Assembly (NCBI GenBank): GCA_030430025.1
Contig: JAUIGR010000027.1
Coordinates: 1-32,528, forward strand
Reading direction: 5' to 3'
DNA: 32,528 nucleotides
DNA from: Gammaproteobacteria bacterium
GTDB taxonomy: Bacteria; Pseudomonadota; Gammaproteobacteria; Xanthomonadales; Marinicellaceae
Part shown: positions 4,058-32,294 of the stretch, in pieces
How positions within the stretch are numbered: position 1 is the first letter of the stretch
Layout of the letters: each line of letters begins with the position of its first letter
Made by a program: the position numbers and the translations under genes
Notes under the pieces: model-generated
Seen by the model: the letters and a program-made list of their open reading frames with translations, nothing else
The model's database searches: none
Told to the model about the DNA's origin: nothing

Positions 4058-4474
4058 ATGAAAGATATTAAACTAAAACCTGTAACTGCTGCAGTAGCGG
4101 CTGCGATCACATTGGTAGGTACAAGCTCTATGATCAACGACAATCCATTTGGTCAAACAGATTTAGTACAGGGCTATCAAAACGCCGAAGGTCATGCCAT
4201 TAAATTTGATGGTAAAGACGGTGAAGGCAAATGTGGCGAAGGTAAATGCGGTGACGATAAAAAAGCCGAAGGCAAATGTGGCGAAGGTAAATGCGGTGAC
4301 GATAAAAAAGCCGAAGGCAAATGTGGCGAAGGTAAATGCGGTGACGATAAAAAAGCCGAAGGCAAATGTGGTGAAGGCAAATGCGGCGACGACAAAAAAG
4401 CCGAAGGCAAATGTGGCGAAGGTAAATGCGGTGACGATAAAAAAGCCGAAGGCAAATGTGGTGGCAGCCAATAA
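4058..4474 (+). CDS. hvfA: HvfA-type copper-binding RiPP precursor with 11 EGKCG cores
   Basis: Precursor of a ribosomally made, post-translationally modified peptide. In the Haemophilus Hvf system the cysteines of EGKCG motifs are converted to oxazolone/thioamide groups that bind copper; that is known of the family and inferred here. The 138 residues comprise a short basic start, a hydrophobic Ala-rich segment (about 8-24, signal/export-like), a leader to about residue 55, then five units of EGKCGEGKCGDDKKA and a final EGKCG before GSQ. This gives eleven EGKCG motifs, and all eleven cysteines of the protein lie in them. The DUF692 enzyme gene starts 6 bp downstream. The modified peptide is likely periplasmic. 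Confidence 0.88.
   Translation: MKDIKLKPVTAAVAAAITLVGTSSMINDNPFGQTDLVQGYQNAEGHAIKFDGKDGEGKCGEGKCGDDKKAEGKCGEGKCGDDKKAEGKCGEGKCGDDKKAEGKCGEGKCGDDKKAEGKCGEGKCGDDKKAEGKCGGSQ
4223..4465 (+). repeat. 45-bp in-frame tandem repeat, five units plus a partial unit
   Basis: Units begin at 4223, 4268, 4313, 4358 and 4403, with a partial unit from 4448. Each encodes EGKCGEGKCGDDKKA. Units 1, 2, 3 and 5 look identical at the DNA level. Unit 4 (4358-4402) differs at several third-codon positions only, so the peptide is unchanged. Unit number could vary by slippage or recombination without breaking the frame. Confidence 0.95.
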
Positions 4475-4480
4475 AGAACC

Positions 4481-5347
4481 ATGAAATTATCTGAGCTTCA
4501 AGGCGCAGGTATTGGTTTGAGACGGGGATTGATTTCCCCGTTTCAATCCTACCTAAAAAATCATGGTTCTTTAGACCATGTCAGTTTCATGGAAGTCGCT
4601 CCTGAAAACTGGATTACTGTTGGTGGGCAGTCCAGGAGAGACTTCTTAATTTTTGCTGAACAATACCCTATCGTCTTACATGGTCTTTCTTTGTCAATTG
4701 GGGGACCAGATCCTTTAAATGAAACCCTAATTAAGCAAATTAAATCATTCAAACACGACCTACAGTCACCGCTGTATTCAGAACATTTATCTTACTGTAC
4801 TGATGGAGGGCAGCTTTACGACCTAATGCCCATACCTTTTACTTACGCTGCAGCTAAATATGTGGCTGATCGTGTGATGCGAGTACAAGACATATTAGGT
4901 GAACAAATGGCATTAGAACATGTTTCTTACTATTTAACCCACCCAGGTGCAGAAATGTCAGAAATAGAGTTTATTAACACTGTATTAGAAAAAGCTGACT
5001 GTTTATTACACCTTGACGTAAATAACATATACGTGAATGCTATTAACCATTGCTATGATCCTTATCAATTTTTAGACGCGCTCCCTCACAATCGTATCGC
5101 ATATATTCACATTGCTGGACATTACGACGAAGATGAAGATCTAAAAATCGATACACATGGGGCTGATGTGAAAGACGATGTCTGGGAAATTCTTGATTAC
5201 ACTTACAAAAATTTTGGCATATTTCCCACCTTATTAGAACGTGATTTCAATTATCCGCAAGTCAATCAACTACTTTCTGAAGTGAATCGTATTCACAATG
5301 CCCAACAAGTTTACAATAAGAGCAATGTCCAACAAGCCGGACTTTAA
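4481..5347 (+). CDS. hvfB: DUF692 multinuclear non-heme iron oxygenase (HvfB/BufB/MbnB family)
   Basis: Peptide-modifying oxygenase expected to act on the cysteines of the adjacent precursor together with its DUF2063 partner. It is 288 residues with a TIM-barrel-type fold expected for the family. Family motifs visible in order: VLHGLSLSIGG (His67), YSEHLSYC (Glu101, His102), LEHVSYYL (Glu146, His147), LHLDVNNIYVN (Asp179, Asn182), YIHIAGHYD (His210, His214), then DTHGADV and LLERDFNYP. These polar residues are the candidate metal ligands; I do not assign each to an iron. The start is 6 bp after hvfA and it overlaps hvfC. It is cytoplasmic, with no signal peptide. Confidence 0.92.
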   Translation: MKLSELQGAGIGLRRGLISPFQSYLKNHGSLDHVSFMEVAPENWITVGGQSRRDFLIFAEQYPIVLHGLSLSIGGPDPLNETLIKQIKSFKHDLQSPLYSEHLSYCTDGGQLYDLMPIPFTYAAAKYVADRVMRVQDILGEQMALEHVSYYLTHPGAEMSEIEFINTVLEKADCLLHLDVNNIYVNAINHCYDPYQFLDALPHNRIAYIHIAGHYDEDEDLKIDTHGADVKDDVWEILDYTYKNFGIFPTLLERDFNYPQVNQLLSEVNRIHNAQQVYNKSNVQQAGL

Positions 5348-6092
5348 GCAACTTCAAATTGATTTTGCAGCACATATTCGCCACCCAGCGGAAGTGCCTG
5401 CTCCAATCGGCATAGAAAACAGACGTTTGGTTATATACCGTAAACTTTTTATCAATAGTTTATCAAACTTGATAGCAAGTACTTTTCCAGTCTTACATAG
5501 CTTATATTCAAATAATGATTGGCAACAATTGATACGGGATTTTTTTCAGCCTGAATTAAACAAAACACCTCACTTTCCAGAAATTCCTCGAGAGTTTCTT
5601 GCTTTCATACAATCTAAAACATTAACTGCTGGTGATAAACCATTCTTGCAAGAACTCGCTCTTTATGAATGGCTAGAATTACACTTAGACAAACATTTAC
5701 AAAAGATTGATTTTATAGCAAAAAACAGTAACGATCTGAACAACCAGATACCTGTCATCAACCCCATATCTTCTCTCAATGCCTTCAACTATCCTGTTCA
5801 TCAAATCAGTATAGATTTTCAACCTCAACACCCACTCGAACAAGCTGTATTTTTGTTATTATGGAGAGACCAGACAAATCAAGTTCGGTTCACAGAGCTG
5901 AATGCCATATCTGCCATGTTATGGGAAAATTTGAAAAACAACCCAAATAATAAGTCAGGTCAAGAGATTCTGAATGAAATAGCTATAAAAACCCAGTCAT
6001 CAGACATGACAGGATTCATTGAGTTTGGTTTGCAATCACTCAATAGATGGCAAAGGCAAGGCATTATCTGCGACACCAGGAATCAGTCATGA
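5325..6092 (+). CDS. hvfC: DUF2063 RiPP-maturation partner protein (HvfC/BufC family)
   Basis: Partner of the DUF692 oxygenase; members are thought to bring the precursor leader to the enzyme. An N-terminal DUF2063 region (about 1-100) is recognisable: DFKQLQIDFAAHIRHP, then RRLVIYRKLFINSLSNLIAS and the FPVLHSLY stretch, with EIPREFLAFI further on. The rest is less conserved. I place the start at the ATG at 5325 (MSNKPDF, 255 residues) because AAGAG lies just upstream and the family begins about there. An in-frame ATG at 5298 would add nine residues. It overlaps hvfB by 23 bp and shares ATGA with the next gene. Confidence 0.87.
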   Translation: MSNKPDFKQLQIDFAAHIRHPAEVPAPIGIENRRLVIYRKLFINSLSNLIASTFPVLHSLYSNNDWQQLIRDFFQPELNKTPHFPEIPREFLAFIQSKTLTAGDKPFLQELALYEWLELHLDKHLQKIDFIAKNSNDLNNQIPVINPISSLNAFNYPVHQISIDFQPQHPLEQAVFLLLWRDQTNQVRFTELNAISAMLWENLKNNPNNKSGQEILNEIAIKTQSSDMTGFIEFGLQSLNRWQRQGIICDTRNQS

Positions 6093-6754
6093 ATGCATCG
6101 TTACAAATTCAAAACATCATCATCAATCTAATCAGTCGATTAAATTCTATCGGACAGTGGCTTCCTCCATTTTTTTTAAGGGCTATCTTATTCTGGGAGT
6201 TCTGGGAGTCTGGTATCGAAAAATACAAAGGTGACAACTGGTTCAACCATATCCAAAAAAACTTTCCTTTCCCTTTTGATAAAATTCCTGCTGATATTTC
6301 TTGGTTTATGGCCACATGGGGAGAAATAGTCTTTTCAATATTGCTGCTACTGGGTTTATTTACACGTTTTGCAGCGTTATCATTAATTGTTATTACAGCT
6401 GTCGCTACAGCAGCCGTACACTGGCCAACTGAATTCAACTCACTATCAGAATTATGGCAAGGCTATGCCATTAGTGATAATGGACATGGTGATTTCAAGC
6501 TACCTTTGCTATTCGTTATCATGTTGATGCCGCTGTTATTCAATGGTGCTGGTAAATTCAGTATAGATCACCTCATAGCCATATTAACCGGAAACCATGT
6601 TGGAAACATACGCTCTGATTTCATATCTAAAGGATTGGCTTTTTCTGTATTAGGTCTGACTCTGTACTTTGTAATGCCAATGTTAGGGCTGATTTTATTT
6701 GTTATTGGCTTAGTACTGATGTTATTGGATCGATTCATCACACCCAGAGCCTAA
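6089..6754 (+). CDS. hvfX: DoxX-family membrane protein of the Hvf operon (HvfX-like)
   Basis: Inner-membrane DoxX-type protein, about 221 residues from the ATG at 6089, which overlaps the hvfC stop (ATGA) and follows AGGA by 8-9 nt. Frame-mates upstream of this ATG lie inside hvfC and are not part of the gene. Hydrophobic segments: FFLRAILFWEFWESGIEKY, a helix containing the WGEIVFSILLLLGLFTRF core that is typical of DoxX, one near AALSLIVITAVATAAV, one at LPLLFVIMLMPLLF, and a C-terminal pair around LTLYFVMPMLGLILFVIGL. DoxX genes are regular fourth members of DUF692/DUF2063 copper-peptide operons; the biochemical role is not known to me. A structured repeat begins 2 nt after the stop. Confidence 0.85.
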   Translation: MNASLQIQNIIINLISRLNSIGQWLPPFFLRAILFWEFWESGIEKYKGDNWFNHIQKNFPFPFDKIPADISWFMATWGEIVFSILLLLGLFTRFAALSLIVITAVATAAVHWPTEFNSLSELWQGYAISDNGHGDFKLPLLFVIMLMPLLFNGAGKFSIDHLIAILTGNHVGNIRSDFISKGLAFSVLGLTLYFVMPMLGLILFVIGLVLMLLDRFITPRA

Positions 6755-6755
6755 C

Positions 6756-7066
6756 TAATCAGCCCTGAAAAAATCCTTCCTGGCCTTTTCCAACATCGGT
6801 CAAAAAACACTTAAGCGCAAAAGTGTGATTTTGCTGATGTTTTTTTGACCTTACTTGAGCCTGATGGCTCAAGGTGGCACGTCCTTGTGCCACACCGTCG
6901 ACCAGAAAAAAGTTTCTGGAAAACTTTTTCACGTTAGCCTGAGAGCCGCATGGAAGCGGCGAGTAAAAAAGCATTGAAACACTTGTTTTCTGGTCGAAAA
7001 AATATGGATATTGTAATAAATTTATCTTATACAACAATAACTTATGCATTTTTCAGGTTCGACTAA
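6756..7066 (+). repeat. Structured dispersed repeat, copy 2 (full length)
   Basis: Complete ~311-bp copy in the 20-nt zone after hvfX, between two convergent operons. Ends: TAATCAGCCCTGAAAAA on the left and TTTTTCAGGTTCGACTAA on the right, an imperfect inverted repeat. Internal pairings: GGTCAAAAAAC (6798-6808) with 6839-6850; CTTGAGCC (6854-6861) with GGCTCAAG (6866-6873); GTGGCAC (6874-6880) with GTGCCAC (6887-6893); TCGACCAGAAAA (6898-6909) with TTTTCTGGTCGA (6986-6997), a perfect 12-bp helix; AAAAAGTTT (6907-6915) with AAACTTTTT (6921-6929); GCCGC (6945-6949) with GCGGC (6956-6960). No unambiguous target duplication is visible. Confidence 0.93.
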
Positions 7067-7145
7067 ATAGACGATCAACGTATCATAGACATTTTTGCAA
7101 AAATCCAACCATGACAAAAAGACAACCAGATATCGATTCACAACG

Positions 7146-10500: not shown

Positions 10501-10810
10501 TTAGTCGAACATGAAAAATGTATAACGTATTATTAAACATGAAGAGTTACGTCAACCTTGCACATTTTTTCGACCAGGAAACAGGTGTCACGATGCATTT
10601 TTATTCGCCGCTTCCATGCGGCTCTCAGGCTAACGTGAAAAAGTTTTCCAGAAACTTTTTTCTGGTCAACGGTGTGGCACAAGGACGTGCCACCTTGAGC
10701 CGTTAGGCTCAAGTAAGGTCAAAAAACATCAGCAAAATCACACCTTTGCGCTTAAGTGTTTTTTGACCGATGCTGGAAAAAAACAGGAAGGACTTTTTCA
10801 GAACTGACTA
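10501..10810 (-). repeat. Structured dispersed repeat, copy 3 (full length, inverted)
   Basis: Full ~310-bp copy in reverse orientation. It begins TTAGTCGAAC at 10501 and ends TTTTTCAGAACTGACTA at 10810, 32 nt behind the stop of the adenosyltransferase gene. The helices of the other copies are kept: the 2nd hairpin changes only its loop (TGAT to TAAC) and the GCCGC/GCGGC stem is perfect. The flank GACTACTTA is shared with the solo end at 14276-14313. Confidence 0.93.
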
Positions 10811-12912: not shown

Positions 12913-14265
12913 ATGCCTTTCATTCCCCATACTGACGATGAAATTAAAGAAATGCTCAACACCATTGGTGCTGAAAGCATCAATCAGTTATTCGACGAAA
13001 TACCCAAAAATCTGATCTCATCTCAACTGGACCAGATTCCAGGACGCATGACTGAACATGAAGTGACTCAACACATTAGGGAACTGGCAAAAAAAGACGG
13101 CACGCCTCATTGTTACGCTGGAGCTGGTGCCTACGAACACCACATCCCAGCTGCTGTTTGGCAGATCACTACTCGAGGCGAGTTTTACACAGCATATACA
13201 CCATACCAACCTGAAGTCTCTCAAGGCACGTTACAGGTAATATATGAATACCAAAGTATGATGGCTCATTTAACCGGGATGGATGTATCCAATGCTTCGA
13301 TGTATGATGGTGCATCTGCTTTAGCTGAAGCCATATTAATGGCTGTAAGGGCTAATCGAAATAGCACTTCCAAAATTATTCTTGTTCCGAAAACTGTTAA
13401 TCCTATTTATCGACAAGTTGCTCATAATATAGTTAAAAATCAAAACATTAAACTGGTTGACATTGATTTTAATAAAGAAACTGGCCTAACTGACATCAAT
13501 ACTTTGGATGCTCATGCACAAGATGATATTTGTGCTGTTGTCATTCCTCAGCCGAACTATTTTGGCTTGTATGAAGATGTTCACACCTTAACAAATTGGA
13601 CGCACCAACAAAAAGCCATGGCTATTGCTCTAGTGAACCCCTCTTCGCTGGCATTATTATCTGCACCAGGCAATTGGGGTGAGCAAGGTGCCGATATCTG
13701 CTGTGGAGAAGGCCAGTCCATGGGCATTCCGTTGTCATCAGGGGGACCATACTATGGCTTCCTAACCTGTAAAGAAAAACTCATACGTCAAATGCCAGGC
13801 CGCATTGTTGGAATGACCGAAGATTTGGATGGAAACCAAGGCTTTACGCTTACTTTTCAAGCACGTGAACAACACATCAGGCGAGCTAAAGCCACATCAA
13901 ACATCTGTACCAATCAGGGATTAATGGTGACCGCTTCCACTATTTATATGTCAATGCTTGGTTCAGAAGGGTTACGCAATGTGGCGAGCAACTGTGTGTA
14001 CAATACAGAGCAGTTGAAACAAAAGTTAGTCACTGCCGGGTTTGAATTGATCTTTGATGGCAAGAACTTCCATGAGTTTGTCATTGGTGTGAATGATGCT
14101 GAAAAAATAATCACTCAAATGGCTGCCAAAGGCTATGTTGCAGGGGTCAACATATCTAACCAATACCCAGAGTTAGGACAATGTTTATTACTGTGTGTCA
14201 CCGAAACAAAAACCAACAATGATCTTGATCAATTTGTCGAGACACTGCGTACTTGTCATCAATAA
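12913..14265 (+). CDS. gcvPA: Glycine dehydrogenase (decarboxylating), subunit 1 of the split P protein
   Basis: N-terminal half of the pyridoxal-phosphate glycine decarboxylase in its two-subunit form; 450 residues is typical of GcvPA. Recognisable blocks: MPFIPHTDDEIKEML, LISSQLDQIPGRMTEHEV, GAGAYEHHIPAAVW, TAYTPYQPEVSQGTLQVIYE, ASMYDGASALAEAILMA, and GPYYGFLTCKEKLIRQMPGR. The PLP-binding lysine is in the other subunit, so this protein is inactive alone. No gcvPB follows: the next 100 bases hold a repeat end and then an unrelated gene, so gcvPB must lie elsewhere. ATG is 2 bp after gcvH, with GAAGAAGA ahead of it. Confidence 0.95.
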   Translation: MPFIPHTDDEIKEMLNTIGAESINQLFDEIPKNLISSQLDQIPGRMTEHEVTQHIRELAKKDGTPHCYAGAGAYEHHIPAAVWQITTRGEFYTAYTPYQPEVSQGTLQVIYEYQSMMAHLTGMDVSNASMYDGASALAEAILMAVRANRNSTSKIILVPKTVNPIYRQVAHNIVKNQNIKLVDIDFNKETGLTDINTLDAHAQDDICAVVIPQPNYFGLYEDVHTLTNWTHQQKAMAIALVNPSSLALLSAPGNWGEQGADICCGEGQSMGIPLSSGGPYYGFLTCKEKLIRQMPGRIVGMTEDLDGNQGFTLTFQAREQHIRRAKATSNICTNQGLMVTASTIYMSMLGSEGLRNVASNCVYNTEQLKQKLVTAGFELIFDGKNFHEFVIGVNDAEKIITQMAAKGYVAGVNISNQYPELGQCLLLCVTETKTNNDLDQFVETLRTCHQ

Positions 14266-14275
14266 ATAGTTGAAT

Positions 14276-14313
14276 CTGAAAAAGGCCAGGATGGACTTTT
14301 TCAGGGTTGACTA
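14276..14313 (-). repeat. Solo left end of the structured repeat, behind gcvPA
   Basis: CTGAAAAAG (14276-14284) and CTTTTTCAG (14296-14304) form a perfect 9-bp stem, followed by GGTTGACTA. Read on the minus strand it matches the first ~38 bases of the full repeat (TAGTCAxxCCTGAAAAAGTCC...TTCAG). It lies 11 nt behind the gcvPA stop and could serve as a transcript-end hairpin, although no T run follows. Confidence 0.75.
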
Positions 14314-14378
14314 CTTAACCATAGCAAAAAGAGAGCCAAAAATCGAAGGCAACAAATAAACAATGCTAAAATCAAGTC

Positions 14379-15900: not shown

Positions 15901-16212
15901 TAGTCAGTCCTGAAAAAGTCTTTCCTGGCCTTTTCCAGCATCGGTCAAAAAAACACTTAAACGCAAAAGTGTGATTTTGCTGATGTTTTTTGACCTTACT
16001 TGAGCCTGATGGCTCAAGGTGAGCACGTCCCTGTGCCACACCATCGATCATAAAAAAGTTTCTGGAAAACTTTTTCACGTTAGCCTGAGAGCCGCATGGA
16101 AGCAGCGAATAAAAATGCATCGTGACACCTGTTTCCTGATCGAAAAAATGTGCAAAATTGAAGCAACTCTTTATGTTTAACAATAAGTGATGCATTTTTC
16201 AGGTTCGACTAA
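15901..16212 (+). repeat. Structured dispersed repeat, copy 4 (full length)
   Basis: Full ~312-bp copy lying 30 nt beyond the stop of the minus-strand cyclophilin gene. It carries the compensatory pair relative to copy 1: TCGATCA (16044-16050) pairs with TGATCGA (16137-16143), where copy 1 has TCGACCA and TGGTCGA. The GTGGCAC hairpin is broken here by an inserted base. It begins TAGTCAGTCCTGAAAAAG and ends TTTTTCAGGTTCGACTAA. Confidence 0.93.
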
Positions 16213-32135: not shown

Positions 32136-32294
32136 TTAGTCAGTCTTGAAAAAGTCCCTCCTGGCCTTTTTCAGCATCGGTCAAACAATACTGAAACACA
32201 AAAGTGTGATTTTAGTGATGCTTTTTGACCTTACTTGGGCCTGGCTTATTCAAGGTGAACACTCCCAAGTACCATACCTCGACCAGAAAACTGC
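32136..32294 (+). repeat. Structured dispersed repeat, copy 5 (decayed left half)
   Basis: TTAGTCAGTCTTGAAAAAG and the next ~150 bases follow the left half of the family, including the CTTTTTCAG hairpin, the GGTCAAA...TTTTTGACC pairing and CTCGACCAGAAAA. Many changes have broken the second and third hairpins, and similarity stops near 32294. It seems an older, truncated copy. Confidence 0.8.

Follow-up and report, generated by a model that had tools for sequence, protein, structure and literature searches.

The repeat of about 311 bp that recurs in the window (the whole analysed stretch of DNA, 32,528 nucleotides) is almost certainly a MITE-like mobile element, judging from its ends and target duplications. 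Its core is very probably constrained at the level of the single-stranded hairpin with a GGA loop, and its payload appears to be a structured RNA rather than a protein. As a whole, the repeat may be a MITE moved in trans that carries CsrA/RsmA-binding RNA hairpins, an explanation to which we give an even chance.

Copies, ends and mobility of the repeat

The first-pass annotation had described copies at 1-236, 6756-7066, 10501-10810, 15901-16212 and 32136-32294, with inverted ends and about six internal hairpins. All five copies were confirmed, the inverted ends were as described, the full end reading [TANNTA]GTC-N4-CTGAAAAA, and six to seven hairpins could be drawn (A to E plus two of an inserted module). 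The "solo end" reported at 14276-14313 is actually a complete 43-bp element (14269-14311, + strand) with both ends present. This mini element is of the hairpin D type, with a CAGGATGG loop, and its targets are TAAATA (14263-14268) and TACTTA (14312-14317). Copy 1 (1-233, + strand) is the R-end part of an element of about 306 bp, truncated by the contig start, with its R end at 219-233 and a target copy TAATTA at 234-239. Copy 2 is a complete 306-bp element (6758-7063, + strand, L to R) with its GGA-loop core on the - strand. Its left target hexamer, TAACTA (6752-6757), includes the TAA stop of the upstream ORF 6047-6754, and the right one, TAAATA (7064-7069), is one base off the left. Copy 3 is a complete, inverted 305-bp element (10504-10808, - strand) with TAAGTA on both sides along the element, and copy 4 is a complete 307-bp element (15903-16209, + strand); the coordinates of copies 2 to 4 exclude the target duplications. 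Copy 5 (from 32139, + strand) is diverged and retains the L end and a core that can be followed to about 32290; its R end was not found at up to 3 mismatches. Two of the window copies are overlapped on the - strand by ORFs of 96 and 108 aa. At 4058-6754, the window encodes a small protein in which EGKCGDDKKA is repeated in tandem (15-nt period); three ORFs that overlap one another (4481-5347, 5298-6092 and 6047-6754) come after it, and the whole resembles an operon for a copper-binding bufferin-type peptide.

The genome from which the window comes (G000; 3.08 Mb, 114 contigs) was compared with those of relatives. The search of genome and relatives proposed in the first-pass annotation found at least 102 places in G000 that match the structure model and related copies in 6 of 33 family genomes. 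All 40 scored places in G000 (40 of 216 candidates) matched the repeat at ≥87% identity. The end pattern TANNTAGTCNNNNCTGAAAAA occurred at 320 sites in G000 at ≤1 mismatch, compared with 1 site for the reversed control pattern. The dense recurrence seen in the window is thus far beyond chance, and a chance repeat is ruled out by these end sites and the 40 scored matches. Among 18 genus genomes, the end pattern was frequent only in G000, G005 (42 sites) and G014 (20 sites); the remaining genomes had 0 to 4 sites and the controls 0 to 4.

In an alignment of 39 full copies, the ends are sharply defined as GTCARYCCTGAAAAA (L) and TTTTTCAGGTTCGAC (R), with TANNTA outside. As in a MITE, terminal inverted repeats of 15 bp (GTC-N4-CTGAAAAA) are present at both ends, and the target hexamers are often duplicated. 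The hexamers were identical on both sides in 21 of the 36 copies in which both were read, compared with 7.3 after shuffling; of the 78 end pairs in 1.53 Mb, 43 had the same TANNTA on both sides, compared with 10.9. The elements are short and multicopy, with lengths spanning 43 to about 309 bp. Of the 78 end pairs, 18 measure exactly 43 bp and 31 fall at 305-307 bp, and minor clusters lie around 110 and 246 bp; the 23 short pairs include doubtful ones, such as one that is hairpin D inside a longer copy. Among the 39 aligned copies, 7 (L036, L042, L048, L049, L050, L051 and L054) abut another element end, with one TANNTA common to both, as if element ends were themselves favoured targets. Many contigs of G000 start or stop in or near a copy (for example, C31, C36, C37, C38, C39, C42 and C43). 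Since contigs, including the one that begins at window position 1, end at copies, the repeat has probably fragmented the assembly, so that the copy number is underestimated.

On contig C2, a 246-bp copy flanked on either side by TATTTA lies inside an insertion sequence. The C2 flanks plus one TATTTA aligned to C53, which carries another copy of the hosting insertion sequence, over 237 of 237 positions (88.6%, 1 gap). The mapping of empty sites suggested in the first-pass annotation thereby yielded one site, with a single TATTTA. Site-specific recombination with 6-bp overlaps was also considered, since the flanking hexamers often differ, but it is not favoured because most of the differences are single-base and because transposase frames occur in elements with the same ends.

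The copies of 43, about 246 and about 306 bp have their ends in common with two insertion sequences that contain transposase frames. One (C45:9513-10977) has TAATTA on both sides and two R-type ends, and the other (C2:10850-12468) has an R and an L end; both carry the target TAATTA and the 15-bp ends. Pieces of their frames match PF05598 (DUF772) and PF01609 (DDE_Tnp_1), domains in common with IS5-type insertion sequences, and both elements are probably IS5-like. A 6-bp TANNTA duplication is not known to be the usual one for IS5 groups. The two elements are autonomous-type relatives with matching ends, as expected for a MITE, although their transposase frames, the only ones seen, are in both cases split or decayed. 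Nothing inside the C45 element matched the MITE, and the C2 element matched it only through the inserted module. Among the 18 genus genomes, relatives of the C45 protein were found only in G000 (5 matches, two of them weak). The target duplications, the empty site and the same-ended insertion sequences bear out the earlier suggestion of a MITE, and the presence of such insertion sequences elsewhere in G000 supports its movement in trans. Mobilization in trans by a same-ended transposase is therefore likely.

With our own ORF calls, 75 of the 78 paired elements could be placed: 49 in co-directional, 21 in convergent and 5 in divergent gaps, compared with 369, 106 and 138, respectively, among background gaps of ≥50 nt. 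Where the flanking genes are co-directional, the element started a median of 34 nt past the upstream stop and ended 138 nt before the next start, and it overlapped the end of the upstream frame in 13 of 49 cases. A bias of the GGA strand relative to the genes was considered as proof of an mRNA role but did not replicate. In a first look, the GGA strand ran along the genes in 19 of 24 cases; with more copies and an improved gene caller, it did so in 19 of 35 (core ≥100 nt) or 27 of 43 (any core match). A post hoc split gave 23 of 26 for elements without the module and 11 of 23 for those with it. The test fixed beforehand for new contigs gave 3 of 6 for each class, one 43-bp match sitting within a 306-bp copy, and the relatives gave 5 of 11. 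The GGA strand is not reliably aligned with gene direction.

Hairpins and GGA loops in the core and the module

The core hairpins A to D fold on the strand opposite to that read in the first-pass annotation (R to L). In copy 2, all four lie on the - strand. Hairpin D (6764-6793) has the loop AGGAA at 6777-6781, which is of the C-AGGAN-G type; hairpin C (6798-6850) has a long stem and an inner stem; hairpin B (6854-6873) has a freely varying tetraloop that serves as an internal control; and hairpin A (6874-6893) has the hexaloop AAGGAC at 6881-6886, an ANGGAN loop. Hairpin E (6898-6997) is an inverted repeat, TCGACCAGAAAA / TTTTCTGGTCGA, enclosing the inserted module (6907-6967, + strand). The module forms two hairpins, P2 with the loop CTGGA (6916-6920, + strand) and P4 with the hexaloop ATGGAA (6950-6955, + strand).

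The core was aligned in 33 copies from 5 genomes, comprising 10 of the 39 G000 copies and 23 from relatives (G014 [11 copies], G005 [10 copies], G004 and G001), with four partial or edge copies left out. In this alignment, 93.7% of the cells were paired, and double changes were found in 24 of 46 pairs, compared with 7.8 after shuffling; none of 500 shuffles was as high. When the structure was slid by 1 to 3 columns, the paired cells dropped to 35-51%, a comparison in which the true position has an advantage because the structure was drawn from one aligned sequence. Single copies folded with z-scores of -4.6 to -9.2. The G000 copies alone are on average 90% identical and covary slightly. The paired sites thus covary and the copies are not confined to one strain, contrary to what, by the first-pass annotation, would have refuted the RNA role suggested from the fold.

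In loop A, the columns are A (32 of 33 copies), any base, G (31), G (32), A (33) and any base. Loop D, closed by C-G, reads A (32 of 33), G (33), G (32), A (33) and any base. The complete GGA is present in 30 of 33 copies in loop A and in 32 of 33 in loop D. In contrast, loop B, which lies between them, has 16 different sequences in the 33 copies. The 43-bp mini element is in effect only hairpin D. According to the available parts of the sources, the CsrA/RsmA signature is ANGGAN in a hexaloop, a 5-nt GGA loop also being bound (PMC3791407), and the CsrB repeat is CAGGA(U/A/C)G, with RUACARGGAUGU as the SELEX word (PMC7652899). Loops A and D both have the form of such a site, GGA in a hairpin loop within ANGGAN or CAGGA(U/A/C)G. 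Shine-Dalgarno mimicry was rejected, as loop A fixes an A two bases ahead of GGA and frees the base directly before it, unlike AGGA.

A diverged set of 22 matches (21-85 bits) was found in 21 further loci of G005, G004 and G017. Ten of these had GGA in loop A and 13 had it in loop D; no match had it in loop B, and one of the 22 spanned neither A nor D. The loss of GGA in many diverged copies indicates that the signal belongs to spreading lineages and not to every copy. Among hairpins with distinct stems, GGA was not enriched in G000 (15 versus 17.6 expected), while values of 7 versus 1.7 in G011 plus G002 and 6 versus 1.5 in G004 came from stretches partly picked around module matches.

The class of about 306 bp corresponds to the class of about 246 bp plus some 60 nt that interrupt the hairpin E loop (7 and 6 examples, respectively). 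The same module interrupts the transposase gene of the C2 element. With a model built from 10 copies, the module was found in 28 of 33 family genomes. In a sample of the order, 18 of 61 genomes matched, among them 12 of the 53 that lie outside the family; the matches outside the family were weak (≤45 bits among the matches listed). The 39 chosen loci contained 62 module matches, of which 53 are distinct in stems and loops. GGA was present in the P2 loop in 49 and in the P4 loop in 50 of the 53, across 26 and 22 different stems, although the model was seeded with GGA loops and weak matches lean toward GGA. The loops are CNGGA (P2) and ANGGAN (P4), with the base preceding GGA free. Pairing in the model-fitted alignment was 98.1%, compared with 71.0% after shuffling. 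The module is unrelated in sequence to the MITE core, but NGGA loops are common to both; loops A and D lie on one strand and the module loops on the other.

In 11 of 12 scanned loci (L250-L255 and L258-L262 from other families of the order and L257 from G009; L260 is the exception), a tRNA or tmRNA gene lay no more than about 1.5 kb from a module-like GGA hairpin, and partial tRNA copies lie beside them at some loci (L251 and L252). In own-family loci of the same scan, a tRNA was nearby in only 2 of 14. Arrays of GGA-loop hairpins on both strands were seen at L020, L025, L019 and L024 (G011, G004, G002 and G009) and resemble the paired arrangement of REP sequences.

CsrA/RsmA as a candidate partner and alternative readings

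CsrA/RsmA was proposed as the partner of the GGA loops because it is the only binder known to us with exactly the signature of loops A and D. For this assignment, the arguments for and against seem to us evenly balanced. From the sequence we infer a course of transposase-driven movement, transcription, CsrA binding and an effect on the host. An IS5-like DDE transposase would read the 15-bp ends, move the repeat in trans and duplicate the 6-bp TANNTA, and the element would accumulate directly past stop codons. Once transcribed, hairpins A and D would present ANGGAN and CAGGANG loops to the host CsrA/RsmA, and the form of about 306 bp would add the module hairpins as binding loops on the other strand. 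The copies would then be dispersed CsrA sites that act as local handles in mRNA 3' regions, and at least 100 of them summed would make a diffuse CsrA sink. That two sequence-unrelated families, the MITE and the module, evolved or captured CsrA-type loops and so form a dispersed transposable CsrA sink is a tentative idea, which we hold to be somewhat doubtful. If it is true, binding a global regulator is how a selfish element spreads or earns its keep.

On the host side, csrA was matched in 35 of 41 genomes, including G000, where the frame runs without a stop through and past 33 residues. It was not matched in G008, G010, G014, G018, G040 and G048. Loss of csrA did not cleanly track loss of the repeat, as csrA-negative G014 is repeat-rich (13 core copies and 31 module matches in an assembly that is 94% complete in 460 contigs) and csrA-negative G018 has no repeat. 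The Rfam CsrB model reached its cutoff in 0 of 31 genomes. Its sole subthreshold place (24 bits) was in G004, between long ORFs, and is a candidate CsrB-like sponge RNA of 312 nt (L182:1501-1812, equal to G004:C7:232421-232732, - strand). This candidate has 15 GGA and 7 CAGGA(T/A/C) on the matched strand, and these words may therefore also serve an ordinary sponge RNA in the genus. A scan of 1.86 Mb of G000 for a CsrB-like cluster gave one segment past the threshold, which is coding-like in appearance. Rfam had no gathering-level match to any family in the window, a CsrB-type sponge included, and at E values up to 10 it gave only chance-level matches to unrelated families in 6700-7120.

Several observations count against CsrA. 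The strand bias is not reliable, the module loops lie on the opposite strand, GGA is lost in old G005 copies and is not enriched among the distinct-stem hairpins of G000, and G014 is rich in repeats without a csrA match. The stems are also long, and the P4 loop can in some cases shrink to 4 nt. According to a review, CsrA may be disfavoured where the structure is very stable (PMC7652899), and a 4-nt GGA loop was bound weakly in the RsmN paper (PMC3791407), both as given in the available parts of these sources.

The repeat could instead be a purely selfish MITE, with hairpins that are stable 3' structures or template-switch palindromes and GGA loops that have no protein partner; as 3' structures, the hairpins might protect or insulate transcripts, a role also ascribed to REP- and ERIC-like repeats. 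The stable folds, the placement after stop codons, the missing strand bias and the decay of old copies all agree with this, but it leaves unexplained the fixed A and GGA beside bases free to be any of the four in the same loop, the free tetraloop of hairpin B and the matching NGGA loops in the unrelated module, and we consider it rather unlikely. It is improbable that the hairpins are read as single-stranded DNA or RNA by a mobilization protein (e.g., of the REP type) with GGA as its mark, since the 15-bp ends and the 6-bp duplication already account for movement of the MITE and the loop words coincide with those of CsrA and match no transposase mark known to us by name. Such reading would suit the module especially, which lies in the hairpin E loop and in a transposase gene, as if targeting hairpins, and near or in partial tRNA genes in distant genomes, and the array loops occur on both strands. 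Shared ancestry of a recent, unconstrained family is very improbable as the source of the GGA pattern: it fits the high identity of the G000 copies and their little covariation, but across genomes the stems and loop B changed and GGA did not, the adjacent N took all four bases, and in the module (with a model seeded with GGA loops) the stems differ throughout and NGGA stays.

If CsrA does bind, a global posttranscriptional regulator directly gains binding sites, or is buffered, through transposition. The pattern of a fixed GGA and a free N offers a sharp mutational test of the proposed CsrA/RsmA binding, and the forms of 43, about 246 and about 306 bp are natural variants.

Comparison with known systems

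A TA target with Correia ends was not found in the repeat; the whole hexamer TANNTA matches, and the end sequence differs from the generally known Correia end. Like Correia/NEMIS, RUP and ERIC, the repeat is small and non-autonomous with terminal inverted repeats. Transcripts of those elements fold and can affect mRNAs, and they have TA termini, an IHF site and RNase III processing, whereas a 6-bp TANNTA and GGA loops are found here; CsrA does not appear in the available part of that text (PMC2229807).

In Coxiella, the MITEs QMITE1 and QMITE2 gave rise to the sRNAs CbsR3, CbsR13 and CbsR16. The repeat resembles them in being a non-coding MITE with terminal repeats, direct repeats, strong RNA folds and short and long forms. 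QMITE copies are expressed as small RNAs, and QMITE direct repeats are 2-3 or 7-9 bp, compared with TANNTA here; the word CsrA is absent from the available part of the paper, on which these statements rest (PMC5896051). Our literature searches gave no paper that describes CsrA-type loops in a MITE or links a MITE family to CsrA/RsmA, and the word CsrA is absent from a further MITE paper (PMC10969869). That bacterial MITEs fold and sometimes become small RNAs is already known.

With the CsrB/CsrC and RsmX/Y/Z sponges, the repeat shares GGA hairpin loops of the CAGGA(U/A/C)G and ANGGAN types. According to the available parts of the sources, those sponges are dedicated regulated genes with many sites (PMC7652899, PMC3791407), unlike the dispersed mobile repeat described here, which has two candidate sites per core copy.

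REP sequences with GTAG or CGTC tags are, in the available part of the source, likewise short intergenic palindromes and possible mRNA stabilizers, but the present repeat has inverted ends and a target duplication (PMC3733652). The 43-bp mini elements are close in size to REP palindromes (20-40 bp) but have inverted ends and flanking TANNTA.
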